Virus record (IMG/VR): IMGVR_UViG_3300047299_000067
Coordinates: 1-64,000 of that record
Direction: 5' to 3' (one strand)
Origin: a virus
DNA: 64,000 nucleotides
Shown: positions 14,501-48,477 of the stretch, piece after piece
Position numbering within the stretch: the first letter of the stretch is position 1
Layout of the letters: each line of letters begins with the position of its first letter
The notes under the pieces: model-generated
The model's input: the letters and a program-made list of their open reading frames with translations, nothing else
The model's database searches: none
What the model was told of the DNA's origin: nothing
Position numbers and translations under genes: made by a program

Positions 14501-14508
14501 TATAAATA
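14501..14508 (+). promoter_or_regulatory. T4-type late promoter TATAAATA
   Basis: A perfect TATAAATA late promoter lies in the 44-base gap after the structural genes, with an expected transcript start near 14514. It is framed by the inverted repeat TGCTAT (14497-14502) and ATAGCA (14515-14520). It is the only consensus late promoter I saw on the plus strand, so it may drive much of the following 34 kb. Confidence 0.75.
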
Positions 14509-14541
14509 GTTAAAATAGCATTTAATACAATGGAGCTCTGG

Positions 14542-18517: not shown

Positions 18518-19981
18518 ATGACAGAACAAAGTAAACCTGAAGTAAAAGAAGAAGACGGCGCGTTACAAAAAACACGTAATCAAGACTTTTTAGATTACAT
18601 GGATAGAACAATGTCCGGGATAGAATCGCATTTTGACAGTAAGAGTTTTTGCTCGGCTAAGTGGTTGCAAAGCACGACCAATTTACAAACAGGACAAACA
18701 CATAGTTGCCACCATCCGGTGCAACATAAAATTCCTATCGAAGAAGTGCTGTCTAACCCTACGGCTATTCATAATACCAAGCACAAAAAAGAACAACGCA
18801 AATTAATGCTAGAAGGAAAACGTCCTAGCGAATGCCATTATTGCTGGAATATCGAAGACTTGCCGGGAAAGCATTTTAGCGACAGAACATATAAAACAAC
18901 TGATTATATTTGGTCAGTTAACAACTTAAATGATATCGTAGATGCCGGACATAGCGGTGATATTATCCCTACATATTTAGAAGTTAGTTTTGAAAATACA
19001 TGTAATTTTAAATGCATGTATTGTACCCCCGATGTTAGTAGTAAATGGATGGAAGAAGTTGAGCGATTCGGTCCGTATCCGACCGGGCAGGGCGATTTGA
19101 GTTATATTGCTAAAGTGGGGAAAACTCCGATCCCAGTAAGAGAAAATAATCCATACATTGATGCTTTTTGGAAATGGTGGCCGGATTTATATCCTAAACT
19201 TAAAGTGTTTAGAGTTACGGGTGGAGAACCATTGTTAAGCAAAAACATGTGGAGATTGTTTGATTACATTATCGAAAATCCTCGCGATGATTTGAGTTTC
19301 GCCATCAATACCAATATGCAACCGCCAGATGAATTATTGGACAGATTGATTGAAAAGATTAATTTATTAGACGGTAAGTTAAAAAACTTAACGATCTTTA
19401 CTAGCTGCGAAGCTCATGGCGAACAAGCTAATTATATTAGGCACGGCATGAACTATGAAAAATGGTTAGCAAATTGCAGAAAGTTATTATCTAATACCAA
19501 AGTCGATTTAAACATCATGGTAACGTTTAATGGCCTTAGTGTGTTTTCGTTTAAAGACTTCTTAAAAGATGTATGGACATTACGAACAGAGTTTAACGAA
19601 GATGACGCTCACAATAGAATTCCTATTATGATTTCTTATTTGCGTTGGCCCGATCAACAAGGTATCAAACTTATTCCTAAAATATTTAAAGACAAACACT
19701 TTGCAGAAATAAAAGAGTATGTTATGAATAACATGCGTCAAACAAGTTCTAATAAAGCGGGTAGATTTTATTTAGAAGAATTGGATCAAATTAACCGACT
19801 TATAGAGTACAGTGAAAATACTTTTACTGAAGAAACAACGATTGAATTAAGAAAACATTTTTATAGATTTTTTAATGAATACGACAGACGCAAGGGATTG
19901 GATATTATTAAAACTTTTCCTGAGCTACACGAATATTGGGATTTTTGTAAAAGTCTGTCACGCAGACGCATTGGAGAATAA
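18518..19981 (+). CDS. Radical SAM protein with N-terminal Cys region, subfamily A
   Basis: A 487-residue radical SAM enzyme. Residues 162-169 hold CNFKCMYC, the CX3CX2C loop that binds the catalytic 4Fe-4S cluster and S-adenosylmethionine, and residues 235-238 are the GGEP motif. Ahead of the core are four conserved cysteines (C45, C64, C106, C109), which likely bind an auxiliary cluster or a zinc; this resembles a SPASM/twitch-type region placed before the barrel. The C-terminus has a DRRKGLDIIKTFPEL motif shared with other members here. The gene directly downstream (19982) is a close paralogue, probably a duplication. Substrate unknown: peptide and sugar substrates are both known for SPASM/twitch radical SAM enzymes. 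Confidence 0.88.
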   Translation: MTEQSKPEVKEEDGALQKTRNQDFLDYMDRTMSGIESHFDSKSFCSAKWLQSTTNLQTGQTHSCHHPVQHKIPIEEVLSNPTAIHNTKHKKEQRKLMLEGKRPSECHYCWNIEDLPGKHFSDRTYKTTDYIWSVNNLNDIVDAGHSGDIIPTYLEVSFENTCNFKCMYCTPDVSSKWMEEVERFGPYPTGQGDLSYIAKVGKTPIPVRENNPYIDAFWKWWPDLYPKLKVFRVTGGEPLLSKNMWRLFDYIIENPRDDLSFAINTNMQPPDELLDRLIEKINLLDGKLKNLTIFTSCEAHGEQANYIRHGMNYEKWLANCRKLLSNTKVDLNIMVTFNGLSVFSFKDFLKDVWTLRTEFNEDDAHNRIPIMISYLRWPDQQGIKLIPKIFKDKHFAEIKEYVMNNMRQTSSNKAGRFYLEELDQINRLIEYSENTFTEETTIELRKHFYRFFNEYDRRKGLDIIKTFPELHEYWDFCKSLSRRRIGE

Positions 19982-21523
19982 ATGAAAAGAAATTACGTAG
20001 AGTACAAAGATAAATTTTTAAATCAAATTAGCCCGAGCTTTTGCGGCGCTAAATGGTACAATGCGACAGTGTGGCTCGGTAGTGGTACTACTGCAAGTTG
20101 CCATCACCCACCTGCACACAAAATCCCGCTAGAAGAAATCCAACGCAGCTACAAAGCATTGCACAATACTGAATATAAAAAGATGGTACGTAAGCAAATG
20201 CTTATTGGCGAGCGCCCAACAGAATGCGAATATTGTTGGAAAGTCGAAGACCTCGGCGCTGACAAAATTAGCGACCGAGTGTATAAGAGTATCATTTACT
20301 CTGACGAGGCAAATTTACAAGCAAAAGATTTGTTTAAAGAAACTGAAGATGTTGATCTTAAAACATTAGAAATCGCTTTCGATGCTAACTGTAATTTTGC
20401 ATGTAGCTATTGTAATCCAAGTTTTAGCACTAAGTGGATGGAAGACATTAAAACAAACGGCCCTTACCAGAATATGGTTAGTGACGGTGCGGGAGCTTAC
20501 CATCAAGATGGATCGTGGGCGCAACCATATGGTATTAAAAATCAAGGGAATCCGTATGTTGCAGCGTTTATGGAATGGTGGATAAACGATTTGCAACACA
20601 GCTTGCAGGAACTTAGAATCACCGGTGGCGAAGCAACAATGAGCCAGGACTTTTGGCGACTGATGGACTGGTGGGAAAAGAATCCCGAATGTACAGTCAA
20701 TTTAGCAGTTAATAGTAACTTAGGCGCAAAAAAGCAATTAATTGAACGTTTGGCAGAAGTTAGTCATAAAATGAAAAACTTTCATTTATACACTAGTAAT
20801 GAGTCTGTAGGAGCACATGCAGAGTATATTAGAGACGGACTTAAATGGGATACTTGGTTGGAAAATATCGAGTATATGCTTACACACGGCAACTTAAAAG
20901 GTTTGCACGTTATGATGACTCTAAATTCATTGAGCTTGTTTAGTATGATCGAGTTCATGGATAAGATGCTAGAACTTAGGCAAAAACATTGGTCCAAGAT
21001 GAACAATCAAACAGCAGTTATGAGCTTTAACATACTTCGTTTCCCTAGCTTCATGAGCATAGTGACGTTGCCGCAATCTATTAGAAATGAGTATGCAGAC
21101 AAATTAGAAGCATGGTTAACATCTAGACTAAGCGAAGTTAACAACCTAATACATGAACACGAAAAACAAGGTATCCAGCGTACGATTGCATATATTAGAG
21201 AAGTAGAAGTAGGGCATTATGGAACTAGTAGTATAGAATCGAGAGAACGCGATTTTAAAACATTTTATATGCAATATGATGTTCGTCGTAAGAAAAATTT
21301 TACACAAACGTTTCCCGAACTAGCTGAATGGTATAATGGTATTCCGGTGACTGAAATCGAATCGCTGCAAACATTAATCGAAGGCGACAGCACCAAAAAC
21401 TGGAAGCATGTTTCGGAATTGCATTTGCGAGCCGCCAAGGAAGGCTGGGTACTCAATAAACAGCAGTCTAATCCGGGTTCCCAAGATTACAAACCTACTA
21501 AAAAGAGACTGTGGGATATTTAA
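19982..21523 (+). CDS. Radical SAM protein, subfamily A, tandem paralogue
   Basis: A 513-residue paralogue of the gene at 18518, starting on the base after its stop. It has CNFACSYC at 137-144 (CX3CX2C), the N-terminal cysteines C21, C40 (within SCHHP), C82 and C85 (ECEYC), and RITGGEATMS in place of GGEP. The C-terminal FTQTFPELAEW motif follows VRRKKN as in the neighbour. It has an extra C-terminal tail of about 50 charged residues. Tandem placement and shared architecture suggest that the two act on the same or successive substrates, possibly as a heterodimer (inference). Confidence 0.88.
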   Translation: MKRNYVEYKDKFLNQISPSFCGAKWYNATVWLGSGTTASCHHPPAHKIPLEEIQRSYKALHNTEYKKMVRKQMLIGERPTECEYCWKVEDLGADKISDRVYKSIIYSDEANLQAKDLFKETEDVDLKTLEIAFDANCNFACSYCNPSFSTKWMEDIKTNGPYQNMVSDGAGAYHQDGSWAQPYGIKNQGNPYVAAFMEWWINDLQHSLQELRITGGEATMSQDFWRLMDWWEKNPECTVNLAVNSNLGAKKQLIERLAEVSHKMKNFHLYTSNESVGAHAEYIRDGLKWDTWLENIEYMLTHGNLKGLHVMMTLNSLSLFSMIEFMDKMLELRQKHWSKMNNQTAVMSFNILRFPSFMSIVTLPQSIRNEYADKLEAWLTSRLSEVNNLIHEHEKQGIQRTIAYIREVEVGHYGTSSIESRERDFKTFYMQYDVRRKKNFTQTFPELAEWYNGIPVTEIESLQTLIEGDSTKNWKHVSELHLRAAKEGWVLNKQQSNPGSQDYKPTKKRLWDI

Positions 21524-22197: not shown

Positions 22198-23083
22198 AAA
22201 GAAAAGAATAGCGGTATGTTTATACGGACAACCGAGGACAGCGTTATATTGTGCTCCGTGGATTAAAGAATGGTTTAATGTTCCTGCGGGCGCAGAAATA
22301 AACGAATATAAGAAAAACTTTGACATGCACCCGGAGTTTATTTCTAAAGATCCGTGCCAAGTAGAAGTTGATTATTTCTTGCATATTAAGGACTATAACA
22401 TTTACACTAATACCATTGGCGATATAGGCTCGGGACCCGACGACAGCCCTGTTAGAAAAGTAAGCCAGGAGTTTTTGGATGAATTAGTCAAGGTTTATAA
22501 TCCTAAAAAATATCAAGTGTTGTCTCATGAAGAAGAATCATATTTAATACAAGGGCATAGAAATAGTTATAGCGCATTGTTTTATAGTATTAGTTCTGCA
22601 ATGAGGCTAAAGCGAGAATATGAAATAGAAACCGGGATAACTTATGATTATTGTTTTGCACACAGATATGACGGTATCACTGGACCAGATATAAATTCGT
22701 TTAAAAAACGTATCACCGGCCCAGGATTTCCCCCGATGGCAGTGTTGGCACTGGGCGAAATGTTTCGTTGGAAATGGGAACAATGGCGGCTAGGACCAAA
22801 CGATGTGTTTTTGGGCGGCGATAATTTAGCAATGGAAATGTTATTAGCAGATACTAGTAGAATTTATACATCCGATGATTTATTCATGTGTAACGACGAT
22901 ATTGGCGGCCCTAACGTAATATTAGGGCGCAGCTTTAGTAATTCGAATATTAAGTTAGAAACAGACCCGAATATTCATTGTGCTATTGTTAGACACAGTG
23001 CAGATTTAACAATTCCAGTTTTAGAAAGTTGGCAATATCATCAAAATTTCTGGTTAAGTAATCACAAATCAACATTATTATGA
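22187..23083 (+). CDS. Glycosyltransferase-like protein (YGQPR / RxD type)
   Basis: A 298-residue protein starting at GTG (22187) with an AGGA Shine-Dalgarno; no earlier ATG is available in frame and the next Met would remove the conserved N-terminus (RIAVCLYGQPRTA). A strand with YDYCFAHRYDGITG near residue 160 matches the RxD motif that occurs in a loose family of bacterial and phage sugar-transfer-like proteins. A large middle region is rich in Tyr and Trp. It overlaps the previous gene by 11 bases and the following SGNH gene by 4. The function is inferred from motif style and neighbours only. Confidence 0.42.
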   Translation: MDYKKKRIAVCLYGQPRTALYCAPWIKEWFNVPAGAEINEYKKNFDMHPEFISKDPCQVEVDYFLHIKDYNIYTNTIGDIGSGPDDSPVRKVSQEFLDELVKVYNPKKYQVLSHEEESYLIQGHRNSYSALFYSISSAMRLKREYEIETGITYDYCFAHRYDGITGPDINSFKKRITGPGFPPMAVLALGEMFRWKWEQWRLGPNDVFLGGDNLAMEMLLADTSRIYTSDDLFMCNDDIGGPNVILGRSFSNSNIKLETDPNIHCAIVRHSADLTIPVLESWQYHQNFWLSNHKSTLL

Positions 23084-23949
23084 AAAGACAATTAATATGC
23101 AATGGCGATAGTTGGGTCTTCGGCAGCGAAATAGTAGATCCAGAATTAGCAAAACAATATCCTGTGGATGTGCATGTAGGAAATTATGATCATAAAAAAG
23201 AAAATGATCATTATAGACTACCTAGAATATTCCCCACAAAACTAGCCGACAAATTAAATGCAGATGCAATAAATTTAAGTTGGCCGGCAGACGACAACCA
23301 GAGCATTTGCAATAGAACAATAGAGTTTATAACAAAAAATTATATTAACACAGGTTTGGGAGTTGATCATTTATTTGTTGTAATAGGGTGGTCAAGCCCC
23401 GAGCGAGTTAGATTTTGGTACAAGGACGACGAACGCAATCAAAAGTTTATTATATGGCCGAGTTTAGAATGGTTTGACACACCAGCCCAGGAAAAGTTTT
23501 GGCGTTTATATGTTGCATATATGTGGAATAAAGAAGAATTTATTCCTAGGTATGTAGACACTGTTCTACGATTTCAAAACTTTTGCAACGAACACGGTAT
23601 AAAGTTTGTTATGTTTAATGCATTTTATCAAGGACAGGGTAGTGGATGCAGTCATGCTATAGAACATGATTTTAATGTAGAACAAGAATTAACACAACTT
23701 GCAGTAGAAGGATATGATTATTCTATTAACAACGTTAGACAGCAAGGAGTTTCTTTTTCTGCCAAGCATGCATGGGCGACTGTAGATAAAGTTAGATACT
23801 ATAATAAAGACGCAGAAAAGAATTCGTTTAGAACGTTTATAACAGATAACCTAGAAAAGCCTTTACAAGGCTGGCACCCGAGCGAACTCGGGCATTCTAT
23901 ATGGGCAGATGAATTGCTTAGATATATAAATGAAAACAATTTATTATGA
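23080..23949 (+). CDS. SGNH/GDSL-type hydrolase or acyltransferase, copy 1
   Basis: A 289-residue protein with ICNGDSW at residues 6-12 (block I, catalytic Ser11) and HPSELGH at 266-272 near the C-terminus (block V, catalytic His). This is the SGNH fold used for ester hydrolysis or for O-acylation/deacylation of glycans. There is no signal peptide, so it acts inside the cell. It is first of four SGNH-type genes within 4 kb (others at 23946, 24800, 26085), all sharing the HxxxxGH ending. In a sugar locus the simplest role is trimming or adding acyl groups on a glycan or its precursor. Confidence 0.65.
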   Translation: MKRQLICNGDSWVFGSEIVDPELAKQYPVDVHVGNYDHKKENDHYRLPRIFPTKLADKLNADAINLSWPADDNQSICNRTIEFITKNYINTGLGVDHLFVVIGWSSPERVRFWYKDDERNQKFIIWPSLEWFDTPAQEKFWRLYVAYMWNKEEFIPRYVDTVLRFQNFCNEHGIKFVMFNAFYQGQGSGCSHAIEHDFNVEQELTQLAVEGYDYSINNVRQQGVSFSAKHAWATVDKVRYYNKDAEKNSFRTFITDNLEKPLQGWHPSELGHSIWADELLRYINENNLL

Positions 23950-24803
23950 TTTCTCAGATTTATACAAACGGATGTTCTTGGACAGAAGGACATTTTTTAC
24001 ACGAAGACCCAGTTGTTAGCCAGTATGTAATTGACGCTGGATATAAAATACAACGCAATAAAGAAATTGATTTTTTAGAAATTGCTAATCCTAACGGACA
24101 AGGACTAGAGTATCCTTACAGATTTATATATGATAAATTTAATTGGGCAGGACATGTTGCAAAACATGTTGATGCTAAATTAATCAACGACGGCCTCGGC
24201 GCTGCCAGCAATAGCCGTATGATTAGAACAACTCTAGACTTTATCAATAATTCAAGCCAGGAAGATTTAGAATCTACATTAGTTATTTTACAATGGACTT
24301 TATTAGAACGCGACGAACTATTTTTAAATGACGGAGAATCTAATGCACAATGGGTTAGATTTAACCCAACCCAACGATTTAGTGATTTAGAACGATGTTT
24401 TGCTCCTGGGTTTGTTAATATAGTAGATAAATTTTGGGAATTACACACAGCTTATATACACAATTTTGAGCATAAATTAATGAAATATTTCCAGGACATT
24501 TATTTGATGCACAATTTATTAAAGGCTAAAAATATCAAGCACTATTTTTTTAATGCGTTTCCCATTGGCTTTGGCGCTCCGGAAACGTTTAATTTAGATT
24601 TTTCTAAATGGTTTGACATTTACGCAAAAGAAATAGAACCCACGGCATTAAATTGTTTCGATACTTTTAGTGAATTTGTTTACAATACACAATCAGAAAC
24701 TAATCAAACTTTAATAATTTCCGACGGACATCCTAATGCACTAGGACATAAACTATGGGCGGATCATATTATTGCAGATATGACGGCAAAGAACATTATA
24801 TGA
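23946..24803 (+). CDS. SGNH-type hydrolase-like protein, copy 2 (GCS variant)
   Basis: A 285-residue paralogue of the preceding gene, coupled by ATGA overlap. Block I reads YTNGCSW (residues 6-12), so the usual Asp before the catalytic Ser is Cys, and the C-terminal block is HPNALGH (262-268). A block with RDELFLNDGE and an AAIHN-like middle is shared with copy 1. The Asp-to-Cys change does not remove the catalytic Ser, so activity is plausible. Confidence 0.6.
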   Translation: MISQIYTNGCSWTEGHFLHEDPVVSQYVIDAGYKIQRNKEIDFLEIANPNGQGLEYPYRFIYDKFNWAGHVAKHVDAKLINDGLGAASNSRMIRTTLDFINNSSQEDLESTLVILQWTLLERDELFLNDGESNAQWVRFNPTQRFSDLERCFAPGFVNIVDKFWELHTAYIHNFEHKLMKYFQDIYLMHNLLKAKNIKHYFFNAFPIGFGAPETFNLDFSKWFDIYAKEIEPTALNCFDTFSEFVYNTQSETNQTLIISDGHPNALGHKLWADHIIADMTAKNII

Positions 24804-25420
24804 ATAAGCTGTGGATATATGGATGTAGCTTTAGCGAACCGTTTGGGTTTGAACAAACTGGTCCTGTTTTTGATGTAAATGGTTATAGAAATATCAAAGT
24901 GCCATACTGGGGCACTCACTTGGCCGAAAAATTAAATTTAACGTGTATAACGAGAAGTTTAGCAGGCGTGGGGTGGAACTATATTACTTTTCAAATCGAA
25001 CAAGATGTAAGATCTTGGAGCAAAGACGATATAATTATAATAAGCCCTAGCTTTTTAAGTCGTGTGAATATTATGGAATTTACAAATGGTTCCACTAGAG
25101 ATGAATTAATTGGGTTTTATAAATCATGGGATGAAATAGCCAAGTATAATAAAACTCGTTGGCGTAATACTATTTTAAATTATCAATACCTCGGATATAA
25201 TGTTTATACATGGCTAGTCGAACATGTCGACGAATTGCCTCCTAAAACAATATTTGCCTCCGATAATGAAGCTAATTGGTATAATTGGATGACACGGCAT
25301 TATGAATACTGGACAAGTTTGCCGGGTATTGTTTATCCCGACGGTGATTGGCACTTTAATGCACGAGGGCATGTTGCAGTAGCTGATAGAATGTACGAAG
25401 TAATATGCAAACAGCAGTGA
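24800..25420 (+). CDS. SGNH-type hydrolase-like protein, copy 3 (GCS variant)
   Basis: A 206-residue protein starting at ATG 24800 with ATGA overlap to the previous gene; a longer frame from 24755 is rejected because it adds 15 residues of overlap without family motifs. Block I is YGCSFSE (Ser10), block V is HFNARGH (185-191). It is shorter than its two upstream paralogues. The IIISPSFLSR segment around residue 75 corresponds to the block III strand. No export signal. Confidence 0.6.
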   Translation: MNKLWIYGCSFSEPFGFEQTGPVFDVNGYRNIKVPYWGTHLAEKLNLTCITRSLAGVGWNYITFQIEQDVRSWSKDDIIIISPSFLSRVNIMEFTNGSTRDELIGFYKSWDEIAKYNKTRWRNTILNYQYLGYNVYTWLVEHVDELPPKTIFASDNEANWYNWMTRHYEYWTSLPGIVYPDGDWHFNARGHVAVADRMYEVICKQQ

Positions 25421-26112
25421 TAATAAGCGGCATCGTTAGGGAAATGGACAACGCTATTAACACGTGGTTCTTTCCCGGAGATTATTTTTTATTTGCACAA
25501 AAAGAATATCAAAGACCGAGAAGCGATATAGTCGAACACAATATTCTATCTAGTTTAACAAATCATCTTCATAAATTTCAGTCTATATCGTTAGTAAGTA
25601 GATTAGACAATATACATCCGACACTTAATATGGCATGGAAATGGAAAGTAGCATTTCATCATTTGCAACCTTATATTAAACAACATAATTACACCCAATT
25701 TATTATAACTCGACCGGACTTTTATTTTTTAAAGTATAAAGACTGGGATTTGATTTGCACAGAACCCGATACACTATATTCTACTTCGATAATGGTATTA
25801 GACTCTATGGGGATGAAATTTGTAAACGACAGTTGCATGGCATGCAATTATGCAGTGTTTGAAAAATTATCGAAATTTTACGACTATTATGCAGATAAAG
25901 CAGCAACTCTTAATATCCATGTTCATTTATCAAATTATTTAGAAAATAATAACATTACGGTCAATGACAAGTTGTTAGAATATTCGCATTCTTTCCCGCT
26001 GCGATCGAACACAAGAGAAATGTTCACAGGCGGAGTTTTAGATAATAAATACTCAGTTAATGATTTAATTACAAAAGGACAACAATGGAACAGTGGCGAC
26101 CAAAACGATTAA
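25405..26112 (+). CDS. Glycosyltransferase-like protein (RxD type), second copy
   Basis: A 235-residue protein starting 16 bases inside the preceding gene. It opens with AVIISGIVREMDNAI and carries FIITRPDFYFL near residue 100, the RPDxxF strand of the same loose family as the gene at 22187. The end overlaps the fourth SGNH gene by 28 bases. The alternating order of RxD-type and SGNH-type genes suggests that they work on one product. Assignment is tentative. Confidence 0.42.
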   Translation: MQTAVIISGIVREMDNAINTWFFPGDYFLFAQKEYQRPRSDIVEHNILSSLTNHLHKFQSISLVSRLDNIHPTLNMAWKWKVAFHHLQPYIKQHNYTQFIITRPDFYFLKYKDWDLICTEPDTLYSTSIMVLDSMGMKFVNDSCMACNYAVFEKLSKFYDYYADKAATLNIHVHLSNYLENNNITVNDKLLEYSHSFPLRSNTREMFTGGVLDNKYSVNDLITKGQQWNSGDQND

Positions 26113-26903
26113 TAATATGCGGGGATAGTTTTAATATTGGCATTGGTTGTCAAGACTTAACAACGCAACCTTACGGAACGTTATTAGCTGATCATTATGG
26201 AATACCTTTGGTTAATTTAGCAAAAGGATCTAGCACTAATTTAAGTATATGGTTGCAAGTGGAATATGCAATTAGAGAATTAAAAGCAGGACCAGATGAT
26301 CTAATACTAGTTAATGAAACTAGCTCGAATAGATTTAATTGGTTCCCGGATGACAAACCTCATTCTGGGCAAATTACTAATTTAGATGTTAATTATCACA
26401 AATACCCGCCTTACGGTGATTTTAGTTATCATCAAATACTACCAGAACATCCTATGCAAAACCATCCGGGATATACTGGTACTATGATAACCGAAAACAT
26501 AGCAGGTGTGTTGGACTTTTTAGATAATTATTTGGCACGCGGTGATTATCAAATAGATCGCTATTATGATAGAATTGCACGAGAAAACCCAGCAAAGCTA
26601 AAGCTCATGGCAAATTTTTATGCAAGTATATATGATGAAAATATTTCTCAATTACAATCAAAAGCATTCATGAGTATGTCGAGCACTATGATTGCACGCT
26701 CGGGTGCAAAACATTTGATGTTATTAGCAAACCCAAATTGGTATCGAGAATTGATTGCCGATGAAAACTTAATGTATTTAAGTTGGGGCGAAATAACGTT
26801 GGAATATCCTGATAATATTCCAAGCGGTCATGCAGACGAACGTGGGCATGTTGTCGCTAAAGATATGATAGTTCATAAACTCAAACTTAACGGATGGATA
26901 TAA
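26085..26903 (+). CDS. SGNH/GDSL-type hydrolase or acyltransferase, copy 4
   Basis: A 272-residue protein with IICGDSFNIGIG (Ser15) at the N-terminus and HADERGH (249-255) at the C-terminus. A VNLAKGSSTN segment near residue 47 fits block II (Gly), and LVNETSSNRF near residue 78 fits block III (Asn). This copy therefore has the most complete SGNH signature of the four. No signal peptide. It is followed immediately by a sugar cupin and a nucleotidyltransferase fusion, which ties the SGNH set to sugar metabolism. Confidence 0.65.
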   Translation: MEQWRPKRLIICGDSFNIGIGCQDLTTQPYGTLLADHYGIPLVNLAKGSSTNLSIWLQVEYAIRELKAGPDDLILVNETSSNRFNWFPDDKPHSGQITNLDVNYHKYPPYGDFSYHQILPEHPMQNHPGYTGTMITENIAGVLDFLDNYLARGDYQIDRYYDRIARENPAKLKLMANFYASIYDENISQLQSKAFMSMSSTMIARSGAKHLMLLANPNWYRELIADENLMYLSWGEITLEYPDNIPSGHADERGHVVAKDMIVHKLKLNGWI

Positions 26904-32134: not shown

Positions 32135-32158
32135 TAAGAAATATTAAATACTAGCATA

Positions 32159-40071: not shown

Positions 40072-40072
40072 C

Positions 40073-41443
40073 ATGACTAATCCGATTACTTGCTATTATA
40101 CATTAGGCGGCATAAACTATAAAAATGGCTTTGTTACAAGCTGCCCGCAACAAAGCGACCAGCTTTACATTATGAAAGAAGGGCAATCTATTAAGCCCAG
40201 TGATATCATTAATTCCGAGGGCTTTAAAAAGCACAGAAAAGAAATGATGTCCGGACAATGGAGCGCAGGTTGTCATTTATGTAAAGAAATTGAAGTAAAT
40301 GGCGCCGGGCATAGTATGAGAAAGGATTACCCTGCAACAACGTTACACTATAATGAAGAAACTGGAGAAATTGATTTTGCTGGCGTAAAGCATTTAGAGT
40401 TGCGTTTTAGTAACGCATGCAATTTTGCATGTTTGCATTGTAGCGATGTGTATAGTAGCGGCTGGATGAGTAAATTAAAATACTACGAACCAGACAAAGA
40501 TGACTTTAGATTTCAGTTGATTCAATTAACCAAAAAGATGCATCGTGTTGGCGCAGAAGATAAACTATCTATTGACATTGATATAGAAAGCATGGAAGTT
40601 ATTGTTAATGACTTAATTGCAAACTTTCCTAACTTAGAAAAAATCGACTTCGCCGGTGGAGAAGTATTATATCAAAAGCAATTCTTGCCATGCTTAGAGT
40701 TATTAGCAACACATCCTAATGCAAAAAACATAGGAATAGTATTTCATTCTAACTTTAATGCTCGCGCAGACCTTCATAGATTATACAATGCATTAAAGAA
40801 TTTTAAATGCACTCCGGAATTGCCAGAATCTATAACGACGACAATTATGTTAAGTTTAGATTCCGGCAAGAATATTTACGACTACTTCAGAACTGGTCAA
40901 TGGGAAGTTCTTAAACAAAATTTGAGTGAGTTCAATTCATATGATATCGACAATAAAATAAAATTAACAATTGTATGTACTACAAGCGCTTACCAAATTA
41001 TGGACATTGAAAACATTTTTAGTTCTTTCTTAGAATTAGACGTGAATGAGATTAGCTCTAGTATCGTATATACACCTAAATACTTAAATCCATCATTGAT
41101 GATGTTAAATTTTAAAGACAGTGTGCTAGCGGATTTGGAATCTACAAAGAAAATAATAGCCAATGCAAATTTTGAAAGATATAAAAATATTGCCGTAACG
41201 TCAAAAAAACGTTCGTGGCATCCGGTTGCAAAAACATTTAAAGATATAATTTCGGCACAAGACGCAATAGAAAATATTAAAACATATATTACTAATACTG
41301 TTCTACCAGACACAGAATATATGGTTATGTCGTTAGAGCATTATATAGGCAAAACAGACAAGATCTGGAAACAAGAATTTAATGAAAGATTTGTTAAGTA
41401 CAAATACATAGACGGAAAGATTATAAGGAACGAACATGATTGA
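40073..41443 (+). CDS. Radical SAM protein, subfamily B-like variant
   Basis: A 456-residue radical SAM enzyme with core CNFACLHC at 116-123 and FAGGEVLYQ as the GGEP variant. The N-terminal auxiliary set is reduced: C24 (in VTSCPQQ), then CHLC at 67-70; the PWxH and CC features of subfamily B are lost, although the YYTLGGI start is in the same position. It begins one base after the first PP-loop gene and overlaps the second by 8 bases. Its long middle differs from its relatives, so its substrate may differ. Confidence 0.86.
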   Translation: MTNPITCYYTLGGINYKNGFVTSCPQQSDQLYIMKEGQSIKPSDIINSEGFKKHRKEMMSGQWSAGCHLCKEIEVNGAGHSMRKDYPATTLHYNEETGEIDFAGVKHLELRFSNACNFACLHCSDVYSSGWMSKLKYYEPDKDDFRFQLIQLTKKMHRVGAEDKLSIDIDIESMEVIVNDLIANFPNLEKIDFAGGEVLYQKQFLPCLELLATHPNAKNIGIVFHSNFNARADLHRLYNALKNFKCTPELPESITTTIMLSLDSGKNIYDYFRTGQWEVLKQNLSEFNSYDIDNKIKLTIVCTTSAYQIMDIENIFSSFLELDVNEISSSIVYTPKYLNPSLMMLNFKDSVLADLESTKKIIANANFERYKNIAVTSKKRSWHPVAKTFKDIISAQDAIENIKTYITNTVLPDTEYMVMSLEHYIGKTDKIWKQEFNERFVKYKYIDGKIIRNEHD

Positions 41444-42278
41444 TTTTAGTGCAAGCAACGATTTATACAAGAATATACCAGAGTCGTACGGGAACATTCG
41501 ACTATTCCGTTTCGACGGATTAGATCTACCATTTAATCCCGATTGGAAGAACATTGGTATTAACTTAAGTGGCGGCGCCGACAGTAGTTGTTTGCTAATG
41601 TTGTTATGCAAAATTATAGAAGAAACTAAATCTGATTGCCGGGTACATGTAATCCAACATCATCGTTGCTGGAATATTCGTCCGTGGCAAGGCCCAGTTG
41701 CATTAGAAGTTTTTAACAAATTTAAAGAATTATTCCCCGCTATAGAATTCATTCGCTATAAAAATTTCATCCCTGTTGAATTAGAATGGGGCGTACTTGG
41801 TCCTATTACAACAGATGCAAAAGGCCGTCCTCGATCCGGCGATCAAATCATTGTAGATTCGTTTAACGAATATGTAATGTACAACGAAAATATTGATGCT
41901 ATGTATAATGGTACTAGCAGAAACCCTGATGTAGATTTGCCTCATAAAATGATGAATAGAGAAAAGTCTGCAGAACAAGGCGAGGTTCGTGACTTAATCT
42001 TTAAGAAAGTAAAGGGCTTAGTAATACTTCCTTTTAAGTTCGTTCGTAAGGATTGGATTGTAGCACAATTTTATCGTCAAGGACGTGCAGACTTGTATAA
42101 TACAACACGTAGTTGCGAAGGCAATGTAGGGCATGCAACTAGTGCAGAATTGATCCCGACATTAGAAGATTACAAACCTGGTATGTATGTTCCGTTGTGT
42201 AAAGAATGTTTTTGGTGCTTAGAGAGAGACTGGGCAGATAGCAAATTAGAAGAAACATTAGCGAAACTAAATGACTAA
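41436..42278 (+). CDS. QueC-like PP-loop ATP pyrophosphatase, copy 2
   Basis: A 280-residue paralogue of the gene at 39136. INLSGGADSSCLLM (42-55) is the PP-loop. The C-terminal zinc-type site is TRSCEGN plus CKECFWCLERDWA. The YNGTSRNPDVDLPHK segment matches YTGTTTNPEHHIA of copy 1, so the active-site surroundings are shared. It is slightly shorter than copy 1 because the N-terminus starts closer to the loop. Two copies with radical SAM partners argue for a multi-step modification rather than simple duplication. Confidence 0.72.
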   Translation: MIDFSASNDLYKNIPESYGNIRLFRFDGLDLPFNPDWKNIGINLSGGADSSCLLMLLCKIIEETKSDCRVHVIQHHRCWNIRPWQGPVALEVFNKFKELFPAIEFIRYKNFIPVELEWGVLGPITTDAKGRPRSGDQIIVDSFNEYVMYNENIDAMYNGTSRNPDVDLPHKMMNREKSAEQGEVRDLIFKKVKGLVILPFKFVRKDWIVAQFYRQGRADLYNTTRSCEGNVGHATSAELIPTLEDYKPGMYVPLCKECFWCLERDWADSKLEETLAKLND

Positions 42279-43581
42279 TACCTTTTGCCCTATTCCGTGG
42301 AACTTTCAAGCTATTCGCGCAAACGGTGACGTTCGTATTTGCTGTCAAGCCAACGTGACTAAGAACCAAGGTGTTATACGTAAACTAGATGGTACGGCTT
42401 ACAATGCAGGTCGTGATGATTTAGTGGAAGCCCGCAATGCCGAGCTTATGAAAATAGTTCGTAAGAATATGCTAGCAGGCGAATGGAGTGATGAATGTGG
42501 GCGCTGTAAAAGCGAAGAAGAAAACGGCCTAGTAAGTCGTCGCAGTTATGAAAACCAACAGTGGATTATGAACGTTAGTGCGGTTGCATCGGCAACTCAA
42601 GAAGATGGAACCATTGCAGTAGAAGATTTTCCTGTACATTATTATGATTTACGATTTGGTAATTTTTGCAACTTAAAGTGCAGAATGTGTGGCCCTACTG
42701 ATAGTAATGCATGGTACGACGATTGGATAGAATTAACAGGTACAAGCGAGTTTAAAGATACTAGCGGGATCATACAAATAACCAAAACCGACAAAGGATA
42801 TAGTGTGCCGCAATTCGATTGGTGCAATCATGAACCGTTTTGGGAACACTTAGAAAAGAATATGCATAATATAGAGCATGTATATTTTGCAGGTGGCGAA
42901 CCAATGTTGATAGAACGTCATTATGACTTTTTAGAACGTTGCGTAATTAGCGGTGCCGCCAAGAAGATGGTAATCGAATACAATACAAACATGAGCACGT
43001 TGCCAACTAGAGTGTTAAATCTATGGGCAAAGTTTAAACAAGTTCGTATTGGTGCAAGTGTCGATGGCATGGAAGCAGTATTAGAATATCAACGAAATCC
43101 TGCTAAATGGGATAAAGTGCTTGGAAACTTATATAAAGTTGATGCACTACCAAACAATGTTATTAGTTGGTTGGCTTTTACAGTTACGGCATATAATGTA
43201 TTGCATATGATTGACTTTATGAAGTGGAAACTAACTGAAAGCAATTTTAATCGTATTAATTCTAGCACACGCAGACCTATAATAACTTATCATGTTGCAC
43301 ATCATCCTAAACATTTAAACATTCGCGTATTACCTGCAGAATTTAAACAAGAAGTCGCGCACAGGTACGCAGAATTTTTACTTTGGATAGAACAAAGTTC
43401 TTTTAACGAGCACGTAAAACGCCATGCAAAAGAAATAGTAAATGGCGTAGTTAGTTATATGCAAAGTGATGATTACTATGATGAACACTGGCAAACATTT
43501 GTTAAATACACTGTAGAATTAGATGCAATAAGAAACGAATCTATAAAAGAAGTTGAACCGGAATTTAAAAAATACATATGA
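42271..43581 (+). CDS. Radical SAM protein, subfamily B
   Basis: A 436-residue enzyme with FCPIPWNFQAIRANGDVRIC and a second Cys at the N-terminus (C6, C24, C25), CGRC at 76-79, core CNLKCRMC at 133-140, and FAGGEPMLIE. It is close to the gene at 37737 in architecture and ends with the same type of terminal motif in weaker form (VEPEFKKYI). It overlaps the second PP-loop gene by 8 bases, completing a radical SAM / PP-loop alternation. Confidence 0.9.
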   Translation: MTNTFCPIPWNFQAIRANGDVRICCQANVTKNQGVIRKLDGTAYNAGRDDLVEARNAELMKIVRKNMLAGEWSDECGRCKSEEENGLVSRRSYENQQWIMNVSAVASATQEDGTIAVEDFPVHYYDLRFGNFCNLKCRMCGPTDSNAWYDDWIELTGTSEFKDTSGIIQITKTDKGYSVPQFDWCNHEPFWEHLEKNMHNIEHVYFAGGEPMLIERHYDFLERCVISGAAKKMVIEYNTNMSTLPTRVLNLWAKFKQVRIGASVDGMEAVLEYQRNPAKWDKVLGNLYKVDALPNNVISWLAFTVTAYNVLHMIDFMKWKLTESNFNRINSSTRRPIITYHVAHHPKHLNIRVLPAEFKQEVAHRYAEFLLWIEQSSFNEHVKRHAKEIVNGVVSYMQSDDYYDEHWQTFVKYTVELDAIRNESIKEVEPEFKKYI

Positions 43582-44303
43582 GCAAATTAATATATGAATA
43601 CGATACACTCGATTTATTGACAGGTAGTGTATTTCAAGTGACATGGGACTTGGGACGTCGTTGTAATTACGATTGCAGTTATTGCCCTGTACATAGGCAT
43701 GATAATTTTAGCCCGCATGCAACGTTAGAAGAATTAAAAAAGAACGCAGATTTTGTGTTCAAGTATATCTCGCTGTATATGAAGTATAGAAATTACAAAG
43801 AAGCAAGTATTAGTTTCACTGGTGGAGAACCAACAGTCAATCCTAACTTTATTCCTTTTATAAAATATCTAAACGAAACTTATGAAGCGAATTATAAAGA
43901 TCAATATTTTTGCTCGTTCGCGCTCACTAGTAATGGAGCTATGAGCGAAAAGATGGCCGATGCAATTGTAGATAATTTTAGTCATATTACTATTAGCTAT
44001 CATACAGAAGCAGACGAGACAATTAAAAAGAATGTGTTAGAGCGTATACAACAGATTTACGCAAAAGGCTCTATCAACCCATGTTCTGTTAGTATCAACG
44101 TTATGTTTCATGCACAATACTTCGACGAGTGTGTTAAGGTTTGTGAATTCCTTGATAGTAAGAATATTACATATGTTCCGCGTGTCATTGGCGAAGATCC
44201 TGATAGTCGACCTAGCTTCGCGCACAAATACACCGAAGCTCAAATGCAATGGATGAAAGATCATTGGGATAAGAAAAATAAAAAGGTAAACGAAAATGTC
44301 TGA
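43578..44303 (+). CDS. Radical SAM core protein, subfamily D (no C-terminal domain)
   Basis: A compact 241-residue radical SAM core: VTWDLGRRCNYDCSYCPVHR places C29, C33 and C36, and SFTGGEPTVNPNF is the GGEP motif. It corresponds to the first two thirds of the 393-residue protein at 47296 (VSWLLGRYCNYRCSYCWPY), which continues into a cysteine-containing C-terminal domain. Here that domain is apparently a separate gene directly downstream (44296), starting 8 bases inside this one. The two products probably form one functional enzyme. Confidence 0.85.
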   Translation: MSKLIYEYDTLDLLTGSVFQVTWDLGRRCNYDCSYCPVHRHDNFSPHATLEELKKNADFVFKYISLYMKYRNYKEASISFTGGEPTVNPNFIPFIKYLNETYEANYKDQYFCSFALTSNGAMSEKMADAIVDNFSHITISYHTEADETIKKNVLERIQQIYAKGSINPCSVSINVMFHAQYFDECVKVCEFLDSKNITYVPRVIGEDPDSRPSFAHKYTEAQMQWMKDHWDKKNKKVNENV

Positions 44304-44730
44304 TGAAAAGAAATTAGGAATGAAAATCGGACGCCCGTGCTGTGGCGGACGAACCATGTGCTTTAGTAAGCAAGAAGAAAGCATCAAAGGTATTTTTAGT
44401 GGGCAACGCGAATTTAAAGGTTGGCATTGCAGCGTTAATTGGTTTTTCTTTCACATAGAGCAACAAACAGGTAATGTATTTCATCATCAAACTTGCCAAG
44501 CGCAATTTGGAGAAACACGAGGTCCGATTGGCACATTGCAAGACAGTGATAAGATATTAGAAGAACTAGAACGCAATTTGCAAAACCAAACAATGCCAAC
44601 GATTATCTGCCCTAAGAAAACTTGCGGTTGTGGCATGTGCGCACCAAAGAGTGCAAACAAAGAAGATTACAAGCGTGTATTCTTCCAGCATTTAAATGAT
44701 ACTTCTGTATTTAAAAACTCGGGATTGTGA
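44296..44730 (+). CDS. Stand-alone Cys-rich (auxiliary Fe-S-like) domain
   Basis: A 144-residue cysteine-rich protein with CC near residue 15 (GRPCCGGRTMC), GWHCSVNW, a Cys in HHQTCQAQF, and ICPKKTCGCGMCAPKS at the end. The order aromatic-Cys, beta strands, Cys, then CG.C..C parallels the C-terminal domain of the radical SAM protein at 47296 (KWECSSGY ... YSCSEVP ... PCGGTSC). I read it as the SPASM-like partner of the core enzyme encoded by the preceding gene, separated by gene fission, or kept apart as a partner that can exchange. No close family is known to me. Confidence 0.6.
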   Translation: MSDEKKLGMKIGRPCCGGRTMCFSKQEESIKGIFSGQREFKGWHCSVNWFFFHIEQQTGNVFHHQTCQAQFGETRGPIGTLQDSDKILEELERNLQNQTMPTIICPKKTCGCGMCAPKSANKEDYKRVFFQHLNDTSVFKNSGL

Positions 44731-45842
44731 TGGCAGGCGAAACAAAACACTATTGCCCTATACCTTTCCATCATATTGCTATACGCCCTGATGGTAATAT
44801 CCAACCATGTTGTTCGTACCGTTGGGAAGAAGTTCCAAAAGACTTTAATTTACAATATAAAGATTTATTTTTATCTCATCCTCATATGATCGAGATTAGA
44901 GATAAACTTCGCAAAGACAAACCTGTAGCAGGCTGCTCTCGTTGTTATGAATCCGAGCAGCTAACAGGTAAAAGTATGCGAACAGAGTACATTCAAGAAT
45001 CGCGACTAGGATTTAGCGAAGTCCCGCCCGCAGAACCCACATTAACTTATATCGACTTGGCATTGAGTAATGCATGTAACAATAGATGCAGAATGTGCAG
45101 TTACGAATTAAGTACAAATTGGTACAGCGATAGCAAAAAACTAGGCATAGAAATCCCAAGAGGTTTAATCGAATTAGACAACAACTTCGACGATATTGAT
45201 TTTTCCAAACTAACATATATCAAGCTCATTGGCGGCGAACCTTTAATGGAGCAAACTAAGTTTATTGAGATTCTAAAAAAATGCAAGCTAGACACATTAA
45301 ATGTATTGATTACAACTAATTCTACTATGCGCCCCGGTGATGAATTGTTATCATTATTGCAAGCATGTAAGAAAGTTCGTTGGAATCTGAGTATTGATGC
45401 ATATGGTGAATTTAATAACTTTCTGCGCAAAGGAAGTAAATGGGACGAAGTCGCTGCTAATCTCGATTGGTATTATAACATGTTTCCTGGGTGCATCAAC
45501 GTTAATGGAGTCGTGAGCATTTACAATTCTAATAATTTCTTCTTGTTAGTAGATTATATAGAAAGCAAGTATAAAAATATTAGAATCGCATTTAACATGA
45601 TAGACGGGCACGATTGGATGCATCCAAAGCACTTGCCCGAGCTGTACAAACAAAAAATAATAGATATTCTTAAACAACAAAGTCACCCTATTGTCAATCG
45701 TGTAATAGATGCGATCAAGCAACAAGGCGATACTAAAGAATTTATTGCGCAAGACACTAAGTTAAATCAACTTAGAACAGAAACGTGGGAAGCATACAAT
45801 CCTGAATTATATGCAATGATATATGAAGCCGGAAGTAAATAA
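44730..45842 (+). CDS. Radical SAM protein, subfamily B
   Basis: A 370-residue enzyme starting at ATG 44730, which overlaps the preceding TGA by one base (a GTG three bases earlier is possible). It has YCPIPFHHIAIRPDGNIQPC with a second Cys after it (C9, C27, C28), CSRC at 69-72, core CNNRCRMC at 116-123, and LIGGEPLME. It lacks the long C-terminal tail of the genes at 37737 and 42271, making it one of the shortest in its group. Fold and clusters are clear; substrate unknown. Confidence 0.9.
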   Translation: MAGETKHYCPIPFHHIAIRPDGNIQPCCSYRWEEVPKDFNLQYKDLFLSHPHMIEIRDKLRKDKPVAGCSRCYESEQLTGKSMRTEYIQESRLGFSEVPPAEPTLTYIDLALSNACNNRCRMCSYELSTNWYSDSKKLGIEIPRGLIELDNNFDDIDFSKLTYIKLIGGEPLMEQTKFIEILKKCKLDTLNVLITTNSTMRPGDELLSLLQACKKVRWNLSIDAYGEFNNFLRKGSKWDEVAANLDWYYNMFPGCINVNGVVSIYNSNNFFLLVDYIESKYKNIRIAFNMIDGHDWMHPKHLPELYKQKIIDILKQQSHPIVNRVIDAIKQQGDTKEFIAQDTKLNQLRTETWEAYNPELYAMIYEAGSK

Positions 45843-47064
45843 TACTTTTTGTTTTTATCCATTTAGACAAATTGCTTTAAAAGATTTCCGAGGCTCGCAA
45901 TTAGAAATGGCATGGCCTTGCTGCATGATGGGCAACAAAACTTCTGTCGGCGATGATTCGGACAAATTAAAAATTCCAAATATAAATTCGATGCAACCGG
46001 ATGAAATTTTTAATCATCCTAGAATGCAACAGCTTAGAACAAATTTACTAAATGGAATTAAAGATTCTGCTTGTGAAATTTGTTGGGGACAAGAATCTAA
46101 GGGTATTAAAACTTTCAGATTCTCTTCCGAATTACACAATACTGTGATTGATTTAAAAAATCCAACACTAACTAGTATAGACATAACCAACTCCAGGGAA
46201 TGTAATTTACGGTGCAGAATGTGTTCTCCTGTTTCTAGCAATCAATTGATGAAGGATTATAAATTCTTCGAAGAACATAGTTTATTAACTAAATTCTATT
46301 CAGCAAACACCGGGCGATGGAAAAGTAATAATTCTCTTTTAAAATATTCTCCCACCGATTCTATTCAATGGGATTGGTTGATGAAAAATACCGACAAAAT
46401 TAAATATATTCAAGTTTCCGGCGGAGAACCTTTTTACGATTCTAAAACAATAAAACTAATAGATAGATATATAGAAACAGGCGCAGCTAAAGACACTACA
46501 TTGTCTTTCATAACCAATGGTACAATGTTTACTTCCGAACTAATGGAAAAACTAAATCAATTTAAAGCAAATGATCATTCAGTAAGCATAGACGGTTATG
46601 GGTTAGCTTATGAATATATACGTTATCCTTCTACATTCTCTGGTTTAGAAAAATCACTAAAAACTTTTTTAGATCTATCTACCACGAATAAAAAATTATT
46701 AACAAGCATAGTAGTAAGTTCGCTAAATGTCGCATCGTTAGTTGACTATGTTAAATGGTTAAGAGAATTTGCGCCGGGATCGACTATAATTTTTACAGAA
46801 ATTTTACCAAGCGAACGCGGGACTAGTTTATTTAGAATGCCAATCTACTTGTTACAACAAGCACTGGATCGACTTGCAATATTTGATAACAACGATAACG
46901 AAATAAACAATTTGCGGAATTTTATAGCCGCAGCCATTAAAAATAACCAAGAAGATAAACAAAAGATGTTAAATGAAATAGAACCTTTTGATTTGTCCCG
47001 AAATCAATATTTTGGCGACTTTCTAGATCCTGCACTAGTCGAATGGCTAGAACGTAAGGATTAA
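45823..47064 (+). CDS. Radical SAM protein, subfamily B
   Basis: A 413-residue enzyme beginning 20 bases inside the previous gene. N-terminal set: FCFYPFRQIA (C10), AWPCCMMGN (C33, C34), CEIC at 84-87. Core CNLRCRMC at 127-134, and VSGGEPFYD. The N-terminal insert between C10 and the CC pair is longer than in its relatives (FRGSQLEMAW replaces PDG). Codon use appears somewhat more AT-rich than in adjacent genes (many aaa/tta codons), which might reflect a more recent arrival; this is an impression, not a calculation. Confidence 0.88.
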   Translation: MKPEVNNTFCFYPFRQIALKDFRGSQLEMAWPCCMMGNKTSVGDDSDKLKIPNINSMQPDEIFNHPRMQQLRTNLLNGIKDSACEICWGQESKGIKTFRFSSELHNTVIDLKNPTLTSIDITNSRECNLRCRMCSPVSSNQLMKDYKFFEEHSLLTKFYSANTGRWKSNNSLLKYSPTDSIQWDWLMKNTDKIKYIQVSGGEPFYDSKTIKLIDRYIETGAAKDTTLSFITNGTMFTSELMEKLNQFKANDHSVSIDGYGLAYEYIRYPSTFSGLEKSLKTFLDLSTTNKKLLTSIVVSSLNVASLVDYVKWLREFAPGSTIIFTEILPSERGTSLFRMPIYLLQQALDRLAIFDNNDNEINNLRNFIAAAIKNNQEDKQKMLNEIEPFDLSRNQYFGDFLDPALVEWLERKD

Positions 47065-47072
47065 ATAGTTGC

Positions 47073-47303
47073 ATGAATATAAATGATTTGTCTTTGAGAC
47101 AACTACAATTAGAAGCAGCCAGAGTAATAAGCTCTATGCCTGCAACCAACGACAACATATACAAGTTTAATCGAGCTAGCAGGCACAATAGCCAGGGTTG
47201 GTATGTTGCAGCTATTGAATGGTATGTAGCAACATACGGCGGTCTACCTAGCGAAACAGGTCCAGGTAAAGATATAAAAATGGTATACGAACAAGATGAG
47301 TGA
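47073..47303 (+). CDS. Small hypothetical protein between radical SAM genes
   Basis: A 76-residue protein. It starts MNINDLSLRQLQLEAARVIS (helical) and ends in a GWYVAAIEWYVATYGGLPSE segment followed by a charged tail. The 8-base gap before it and 8-base overlap with the next radical SAM gene place it in the unit. It lacks the leader/core pattern and the cysteines typical of known RiPP precursors, but is the smallest gene in the cluster and could be a substrate, carrier or assembly factor. I do not recognise it. Confidence 0.5.
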   Translation: MNINDLSLRQLQLEAARVISSMPATNDNIYKFNRASRHNSQGWYVAAIEWYVATYGGLPSETGPGKDIKMVYEQDE

Positions 47304-48477
47304 TTTAAAAACAAGCGAATACGACTTCACGAAAATTCCGTATAAGGATTTAGTTAGAGTCGGACAACGGACAATGCTATACCGCGATATGTTTACCGTT
47401 AGTTGGCTACTAGGTAGATATTGTAACTATCGTTGCAGCTACTGCTGGCCATATGCTCGCAGTGATACAAAGGACCATCGCCCTACTCCTTTAATGTTAA
47501 GCACAGTAGACGAAATTAAACGACAAGCTCGTGAACGCGGTTTTAATAGTTTTCACTTTAGTTTAAGTGGCGGCGAACCAACATTTCATCCTGCTTACAT
47601 CGACATCCTCAATCATTTAAACAACGATGTAGCTAATACAAATTATACCAGTGTTCACATGACCAGTAACATGAGCCGACCGATGAAATGGTTTAAAGAA
47701 CAATATGTTCCTGCCGTTAAAAACTTCCATCGTGCTAGTATAACAGCCAGTTGTCACAGGGAACATGTCGATACGCAAAAGAAAGTAGAACAGTTTGCAG
47801 ACAAGTTAGTGTTATGTCAAGAATACGACACACAAGTGACAGTGAATCAAGTCATGGTGCCCGAACAGTTTTATGAAATATACGACTTAGCTCTTTACTT
47901 TCATGAACGCGGTATCAACGTTACACTAAAGCCGCAAAGCGATCCTACTGCAAGTAGAGTAGTAGATGGTTACACTGATGATATGTTAGAAAAGTTGCAC
48001 AACGGAATGCCGCAACGTGCATTTACTGAACAGAAAGCAGCAGTAGCAGGACTAATAGAACGTCCGAAGCCGACTTTTACTGTTGACAAAGCAGATCCCT
48101 TGCGTAAGCAACAAGCAACAACTCCTGCTCACTACCAAGTAGAGTTTATTGACAAGGATGGCAATCCGTGGTTCATGGATCAAGCAGAACGATTTAATGC
48201 ATTTAACTTTAACAACTTTAACAAGTGGGAATGTAGTAGCGGCTATCGCAGTATTATTATCCGTGAACCAGACGGAACAGTAAAGCGTAGTTATAGCTGT
48301 AGCGAAGTTCCATTGGGGCATATCGAAACCGGCTTTAAGTTATATGACAAACCGATGCCATGCGGCGGAACCAGTTGCGTGAGCAGCGCCGACAGTAAGA
48401 TTCCGAAAAGAGCACCTGGCACTAAGTTGCCTTTATTCCCGGGAGATAAAACATATGAAGATACTAGTAGCAGGTAA
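47296..48477 (+). CDS. Radical SAM protein, subfamily D with C-terminal Cys domain
   Basis: A 393-residue enzyme with VSWLLGRYCNYRCSYCWPYA (C43, C47, C50) and SLSGGEPTFHPAY. Its C-terminal domain carries KWECSSGYRS, YSCSEVPLGH and MPCGGTSCVSS, likely binding an auxiliary cluster. It is the fused counterpart of the two-gene arrangement at 43578 and 44296. It overlaps the small gene before it and the SDR-like gene after it (23 bases). Subfamily D looks least like the others at the N-terminus and might catalyse a different step. Confidence 0.88.
   Translation: MSDLKTSEYDFTKIPYKDLVRVGQRTMLYRDMFTVSWLLGRYCNYRCSYCWPYARSDTKDHRPTPLMLSTVDEIKRQARERGFNSFHFSLSGGEPTFHPAYIDILNHLNNDVANTNYTSVHMTSNMSRPMKWFKEQYVPAVKNFHRASITASCHREHVDTQKKVEQFADKLVLCQEYDTQVTVNQVMVPEQFYEIYDLALYFHERGINVTLKPQSDPTASRVVDGYTDDMLEKLHNGMPQRAFTEQKAAVAGLIERPKPTFTVDKADPLRKQQATTPAHYQVEFIDKDGNPWFMDQAERFNAFNFNNFNKWECSSGYRSIIIREPDGTVKRSYSCSEVPLGHIETGFKLYDKPMPCGGTSCVSSADSKIPKRAPGTKLPLFPGDKTYEDTSSR

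Follow-up and report, generated by a model that had tools for sequence, protein, structure and literature searches.

The locus raises the question of why one phage should carry eleven radical S-adenosylmethionine (SAM) enzymes, and whether they serve a common product. The window analysed here is the first 64,000 bases of the 117,305-base virus record IMGVR_UViG_3300047299_000067, which comes from an uncultured, aquatic, T4-like phage; its radical SAM (rSAM) genes, named R1 to R11 along the plus strand (Table 1), belong to an island that directly follows tail-fibre-region genes. We give about even chances to the reading that this island encodes a glycoconjugate pathway, late and linked to the tail, in which rSAM enzymes do the tailoring, and it probably builds or trims a surface sugar or sugar-protein.

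Radical SAM genes of the island

The eleven rSAM open reading frames (ORFs) are open and intact, and Pfam Radical_SAM matches them with E values of 2e-14 to 8e-7; over the whole record, at E <= 1e-3, nothing else matches this model. The initial annotation had assigned eleven rSAM proteins to eleven positions by their CX3CX2C motif. ORFs are indeed present there, these positions being ORF starts and not those of the motifs (19001, 20390, 35483, 36649, 38175, 40418, 42667, 43662, 45075, 46201 and 47422). The motif is intact in all eleven proteins, against a mean of 0.6 and a maximum of 4 in 200 within-ORF residue shuffles. The family-model search proposed in that annotation placed nine of the eleven above the gathering score of Radical_SAM (PF04055), with R4 (28.1 bits) and R6 (25.3 bits) slightly under it; R6 exceeds the cut-off of the NCBIfam model NF033640 (187.8 versus 170 bits), and R4 shows homology to R3 (E 2e-38). 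The SAM-binding GGE motif is found in 9/11 proteins, R3 and R4 carrying the variant GxxGDP, and the best PDB match of the R3/R4 profile is NifB.

Four architectures had been described earlier; three classes are recognised here. R1, R2, R5, R6, R7, R9 and R10 (the N_Twi set) pass the whole-protein cut-off of NF033640 (170 bits), 'twitch domain-containing radical SAM protein' with an N-terminal twitch, at 188-437 bits. Since all seven pass it and all have the N-terminal four cysteines, the two architectures formerly distinguished among them (A and B) are one family, whose name comes without a known reaction. R3, R4, R8 and R11 are below this cut-off and outside the family: R3 and R4 form a second class, having C-terminal cysteines with an invariant set, and R8 and R11 a third. 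The core cysteines are invariant among the relatives of R3/R4, of the N_Twi set and of R11. The idea of tandem paralogues stands in that R4 is a paralogue of R3, but the pairs are ancient, with identities of only 34% (R1/R2), 27% (R3/R4) and 26% (R9/R10), compared with up to 90% for orthologues in other phages.

The AlphaFold model of R5 is good (predicted local distance difference test, pLDDT, 84), and its best PDB matches are the rSAM enzymes SkfB, BlsE, SuiB and anSME. Membership of the MoaA and sulfatase-maturase families was rejected at scores far under the cut-offs, and none of the SPASM-type models for maturases of ribosomally synthesised and post-translationally modified peptides (RiPPs) came near its cut-off for any island rSAM.

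A late, tail-linked glycosyltransferase-like skeleton

Upstream of the rSAM genes, nine relatives keep the order tf2-tf3-tf4-tf5-g14530-GT14888-g15778-g16621-g17543, usually followed by R1, and some have an extra gene after tf5. The box TATAAATA, which is the T4 late promoter consensus, lies 29 nt before g14530. It occurs exactly before this gene in 5/9 relatives (L116, L117, L121, L122 and L123) and as near-variants in two, in agreement with the late operon suggested in the initial annotation. Within the glycosyltransferase (GT)-like part of this skeleton, the GT8-like profile A12 was too divergent for scanning; in the g17543 family the DxD motif is invariant, and a bacterial homologue matches Glyco_tranf_2_2 (E 0.003).

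A scan with tf5 retrieved 80 loci, of which 52, those with 7.5 kb or more of downstream sequence, were testable. GT8-like and GT-A-like genes stand by tf5 in all 52, a linkage of GT genes to a structural operon as in phage virion glycosylation, with the GT assignment drawn from weak profile matches. rSAM genes are in view in 44 of these loci and not in the other eight. Two loci without them, L176 and L203, can be followed as far as the flanking ThyA/VWA module on the replication side, so the island there has GT-like genes and no rSAM. Thus, rSAM genes look like additions to a late, tail-linked GT-like skeleton, and the case for a glycoconjugate pathway rests mainly on this. As a separate observation, the tf5 homologue at L119:5111-8074 is lengthened to 988 aa, and its N-terminal region reads as subtilisin-like.

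Related phage islands

R11 homologues, 64-93% identical, were found in 48 viral loci and are under strong purifying selection (rough ratio of nonsynonymous to synonymous rates, dN/dS, 0.03, with synonymous sites near saturation). Rich rSAM islands, with 4-20 rSAM genes each, were found in 22 related viral records. The search for conserved gene order in phage metagenome records, proposed in the initial annotation, therefore showed such islands to be widespread and the skeleton order to be recurrent; in L010, L011, L024/L025 and L040 the order R3-R4-R5-R6-PP2-R7-R8 is also kept up to the contig ends, with R8b in most. R5 orthologues (62-91% identity) are present in 16 to 18 of the 22 records, the rest having weaker R7-like matches or none; R3 orthologues occur in 16/22, as do GT-A-like genes of the g17543 family, often four to a record, the number seen in the window. 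R1, R3, R5, R11 and the GT genes are widely conserved, and the remainder is variable cargo. The collective role proposed for the eleven enzymes holds in that R3, R5 and R11 travel with GT-A-like genes; it is not supported for all eleven as one fixed pathway, the rest being variable.

The DNA is of phage and not an assembled host fragment: baseplate wedge and tail genes lie upstream, and the gp23 capsid gene is on the same record in 7/22 relatives. The DNA polymerase is nearest to those of jumbo myoviruses, at <50% identity. Among cultured phages, no relatives of tf5, GT14888, g17543, PP1 or R11 were found, and R5 gave remote rSAM matches only.

The strong variability between relatives would suit a loose set of independent auxiliary or defence enzymes with no common product, such as nucleotide chemistry of the viperin kind, or 7-deazaguanine chemistry in which the QueC-like PP-loop proteins take part. 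R8 and R11 do give weak matches to the models of viperin, MoaA and QueE, and QueE-like, FolE and QueC-like genes are found elsewhere in the record. On the other hand, the prokaryotic viperin model (NF038283) reached at best 46.8 bits (R8) against a cut-off of 180, and viperin was rejected; R3, R5, R11 and GT genes are moreover co-conserved in phages and in bacteria. We regard this explanation as very improbable.

A counterpart in Bdellovibrionota

Scanning prokaryote genomes with an R11 profile revealed homologues, 57-65% identical, in metagenome-assembled genomes (MAGs) of Bdellovibrionota, on contigs of up to 936 kb; R11 was present in 9/144 genomes sampled from this phylum. On contigs of sufficient length R5 (mostly 55-62%) is nearby, usually together with R3 (44-48%) and GT-A-like genes. 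These bacterial islands also contain GT2 and UDP-glucose pyrophosphorylase genes; their neighbours are the housekeeping genes SppA, MoxR, DUF58, pheS/pheT and trmD, and gp23 is absent from the R11-bearing Bdellovibrionota MAGs searched. The bacterial sequences cluster together in the R11 tree, with support of 99/100; as its outgroup branch is very long, this tree does not show which way the transfer went. In genome G026 a second island lies on the chromosome, with around twelve rSAM genes and the same R8/R8b-type split.

Contigs labelled Rickettsiales, Gammaproteobacteria, Chloroflexi or Acidimicrobiaceae also surfaced, and the MAGs concerned (those of L078, L080, L089, L093 and L096) appear to hold phage contigs. 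The Chloroflexi, Rickettsiales and Gammaproteobacteria contigs were set aside as bacterial carriers, being probable misbinned phage DNA, because three of these MAGs (those of L078, L089 and L096) carry both gp23 and sml.

Two further observations concern bacterial loci. In a Bdellovibrionales locus (L094:6897-19340), tf5, g14530, GT8 and g17543 form a unit that, with R5, R11 and further rSAM genes, adjoins pheS/pheT. A 40-kb stretch of G026 with around twelve rSAM genes and a split pair (contig 1, ~738-778 kb; L111 and L112) also has UDP-glucose pyrophosphorylase-like and 2-oxoglutarate-Fe(II)-oxygenase-like genes.

A bacterial version without phage structural genes would also be consistent with a pathway that changes the host surface polysaccharide during infection and so excludes other phages. 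The nucleotidyltransferase, carbamoyltransferase and aldolase-like genes of the phage island suit O-antigen chemistry, and such a role has been proposed for pelagimyophage GT genes in the same genomic position (PMC7029224). The T4 late box and the position in the tail cluster, however, favour virion assembly over an early surface change, and flippase, polymerase and lipid-linked sugar genes were not recognised in the island; we hold this explanation to be quite improbable.

A split enzyme and a putative small partner protein

As a correction to the initial annotation, the auxiliary-cluster domain of R8 is a separate gene, R8b: R8 (241 aa) is the core only, and R8b overlaps it by 8 nt and aligns with the C-terminal cysteine domain of R11. 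In locus L040 the equivalents of R8 and R8b are a single 391-aa ORF, and further splits between core and domain were found in L007, L009, L021 and L033. Frames of ~850 aa with two rSAM cores each, suggestive of tandem-fused rSAM proteins, occur in records G003, G008 and G009.

The small gene sml was found by direct scan in 26 viral loci (52-87% identity). In the loci inspected it is placed in rSAM islands, before R11, R3 or a short gene adjoining R11; in L071 it forms the C-terminal part of a fusion with an R11/R8-like rSAM. The protein is predicted to be all-helical; it had no match in PHROGs or NCBIfam and no credible PDB match, and Pfam was not scanned. It is conserved over its full length, has no leader/core pattern, and is absent from all R11-bearing Bdellovibrionota genomes searched. 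For these reasons, and given the rSAM fusion, a role of sml as RiPP precursor was judged unlikely.

These features bear on the main rival explanation, in which a protein or peptide is the direct target of the rSAM enzymes, which would act as SPASM/twitch maturases on tail-fibre residues (such as the tf5 Gly-Tyr tract) or on sml, while the GTs glycosylate the same protein. In the window and in eight relatives this tract counts 8-19 Gly-Tyr dipeptides, and it is kept at the protein level, since the synonymous codons are mixed. A glycogenin-like GT adjoins the tf5 region, and glycogenin glycosylates tyrosine. In addition, the model of the R11-type fusion matches the peptide maturases anSME, CteB and EpeE, and sml lies directly 5' of rSAM genes. 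Against this explanation, no run of at least four Gly-Tyr is found in 29 of the 44 rSAM-bearing tf5 loci, tf5 is missing in 13/14 R11-bearing Bdellovibrionota genomes, and no short precursor gene besides sml was found, sml itself having the features given above. With tf5 so rare and sml absent in the Bdellovibrionota searched, neither is an obligatory substrate of R3, R5 or R11. The tract was likewise rejected as a universal substrate, most rSAM-bearing relatives lacking it and nearly all R11-bearing Bdellovibrionota lacking tf5. We consider direct modification of a peptide unlikely.

Proposed pathway

In the glycoconjugate pathway that we favour, the GT enzymes would build a glycan or a glycosylated protein late in infection, and the rSAM enzymes would tailor it stepwise through hydrogen abstraction by the 5'-deoxyadenosyl radical, leading to epimerisation, dehydration, oxidation or cross-linking. 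The carbamoyltransferase, SGNH and PP-loop enzymes may act alongside them. A common part of the product would come from R3, R5 and R11, and a variable part from the rSAM genes that are swapped; sml may assist the R11-type enzyme as its small partner or as a carrier. The most likely site of the product would be the virion tail fibre, with the host surface as the alternative.

Several points weigh against this proposal. The GT calls rest on weak profile matches (E 4e-4 to GT8/glycogenin and E 0.003 to Glyco_tranf_2_2), and the g17543 family has no PDB match. None of the rSAMs is close to an enzyme with a known substrate, and the fold matches mix peptide enzymes (SkfB, anSME, CteB, EpeE) with sugar or nucleotide enzymes (BlsE, DesII, viperin, MoaA). 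Finally, tf5 is found in 1/14 R11-bearing Bdellovibrionota genomes searched.

More tentatively, and with doubts outweighing confidence, we suggest that R3, R5, R11, the GT-A-like proteins and g34557 are a transferable module of aquatic T4-like phages and Bdellovibrionota, making an undescribed rSAM-built glycoconjugate. Phages would diversify it by swapping extra rSAMs, and so vary the virion or host surface, with the split R8 and R8b and the dedicated partner sml. With the GT-like skeleton in every testable relative, and R3, R5 and R11 in Bdellovibrionota as well, what had been an oddity of annotation becomes a pathway that can be tested and for which bacteria offer a model. Were the product placed on tail fibres, aquatic phages would have a way to vary their surface by chemistry, beyond protein sequence alone.

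Comparison with known systems

A T4-like environmental viral genome with 12 rSAM genes, TARA_ERS488813_N000010, has been described (PMC5332604), and pelagimyophages carry rSAM cassettes in their host-recognition cluster (PMC7029224); such a phage is therefore not unprecedented. The first genome is comparable in its number of rSAM genes, which were treated there as Fe-S metabolism, alongside ATC, Grx and PaaD (PMC5332604). It differs in that ATC-type genes are absent here and in 7/8 relatives searched, and phage Fe-S assembly (ATC), absent from 8/9 records searched, was rejected as the common link.

Pelagimyophages resemble the present phage in being T4-like, with GT8-type and other GTs and with rSAM cassettes gained and lost beside tail fibres (PMC7029224). 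The rSAM core, late promoter, sml, split rSAM and bacterial counterpart are not given in the available part of that report, and the comparison is by description, not homology. Mycobacteriophages with glycosylated virions (Freeman et al. 2023, as cited in PMC12619734) offer a model for the proposed pathway in that glycans are placed on virion proteins; they differ in being other phages, and rSAMs are not mentioned in the citing text.

The earlier impression that the chemistry was not described agrees with the literature searched, in which no functional account of such rSAM islands was found. As far as checked, the new elements are the late promoter and the skeleton behind it, the core of R3, R5, R11 and GT genes, the equivalent of this core in Bdellovibrionota, the gene sml, and the repeated splitting of rSAM enzymes. 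With up to 20 rSAM genes on a single phage contig, such islands represent a large pool of uncharacterised radical chemistry.

Other genes of the island and the record

Table 1. Features of the window, with positions in the 64,000-base stretch
Feature	Coordinates	Strand	Description	Basis or remark
Baseplate gene	51..3407	+	baseplate wedge subunit, upstream anchor	phrog_10646, E 9.5e-245
tf5	13466..14485	+	tail-fibre-region protein with Gly-Tyr-rich tract	directly precedes island in all testable relatives
Late promoter	14501..14508	+	T4-type box TATAAATA	sole plus-strand copy in window
g14530	14530..14901	+	first gene of island	conserved between tf5 and GT gene
GT14888	14888..15781	+	GT8-like glycosyltransferase	family profile A12 matches glycogenin, E 4e-4
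g15778	15778..16620	+	second divergent GT8-like gene	in profile A12; synteny
g16621	16621..17568	+	weakly conserved skeleton member	
g17543	17543..18514	+	putative GT-A-like protein with DxD motif	weak profile match of bacterial member
R1	18518..19981	+	N_Twi rSAM; orthologues adjoin g17543 in most relatives	Pfam, NF033640
R2	19982..21523	+	N_Twi rSAM	Pfam, NF033640
Cargo	23080..26903	+	variable cargo, including SGNH/GDSL-like proteins	DUF6071 matches
Cupin	26894..27343	+	cupin, sugar-isomerase-like	
Fusion	27315..28871	+	nucleotidyltransferase fused to APH-type kinase	
Dehydrogenase	28868..29608	+	AroE-like dehydrogenase	
Aldolase-related	29592..30665	+	GatZ/KbaZ-like aldolase-related protein	
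Carbamoyltransferase	30662..32134	+	NodU/CmcH type	E 9e-55
GT-A-like genes	32159..34572	+	three more g17543-type GT-A-like paralogues (32159, 32880, 33859)	
g34557	34557..35432	+	possibly class I methyltransferase-like; conserved in bacteria too	weak
R3	35432..36604	+	rSAM with C-terminal cysteines, core gene	
R4	36601..37737	+	R3 paralogue	
R5	37737..39143	+	N_Twi rSAM, core gene	
PP1	39136..40071	+	PP-loop protein with QueC-like cysteine motif	
R6	40073..41443	+	N_Twi rSAM	
PP2	41436..42278	+	PP1 paralogue	
R7	42271..43581	+	N_Twi rSAM	
R8	43578..44303	+	rSAM core without C-terminal domain	
R8b	44296..44730	+	detached C-terminal cysteine domain of R8	alignment; fused counterpart L040:6373-7545
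R9	44727..45842	+	N_Twi rSAM	
R10	45823..47064	+	N_Twi rSAM	
sml	47073..47303	+	conserved 76-aa protein, overlaps R11 start	missed in the initial annotation
R11	47296..48477	+	rSAM with C-terminal four-cysteine domain	most conserved rSAM of island
Last gene	48455..49003	+	conserved 182-aa gene, last of plus-strand run	

The two PP-loop proteins share the pattern TxSC...CxxCxxC, reminiscent of QueC (PHROG QueC-like, E 1.5e-4); a scan of viral contigs with PP1 gave no matches.

Two genes on the minus strand of the record, outside the window, may relate to the SAM chemistry. A SAM synthetase with all three Pfam domains (record 64303-65400; L001:303-1400), also found on the rSAM-rich record 3300042889_001272, may meet the demand of the rSAM enzymes for SAM; because SAM synthetase genes are common in viral contigs, its support for the pathway is weak. 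A 178-aa protein of the PNP_UDP_1 family, in the nucleosidase superfamily (record 99128-99664; L002:15128-15664), is also present on two rSAM-rich relatives. It resembles 5'-methylthioadenosine/S-adenosylhomocysteine nucleosidase by its active-site pattern and could remove the 5'-deoxyadenosine formed.

At L001:2155-4924 and L001:11931-13475 there are QueE-like (weak, with atypical cysteines) and FolE genes and a 514-aa protein that has no Pfam match and looks related to phage tRNA-guanine-transglycosylase/DpdA. The QueE-like, FolE and DpdA-like genes point to a possible 7-deazaguanine modification.

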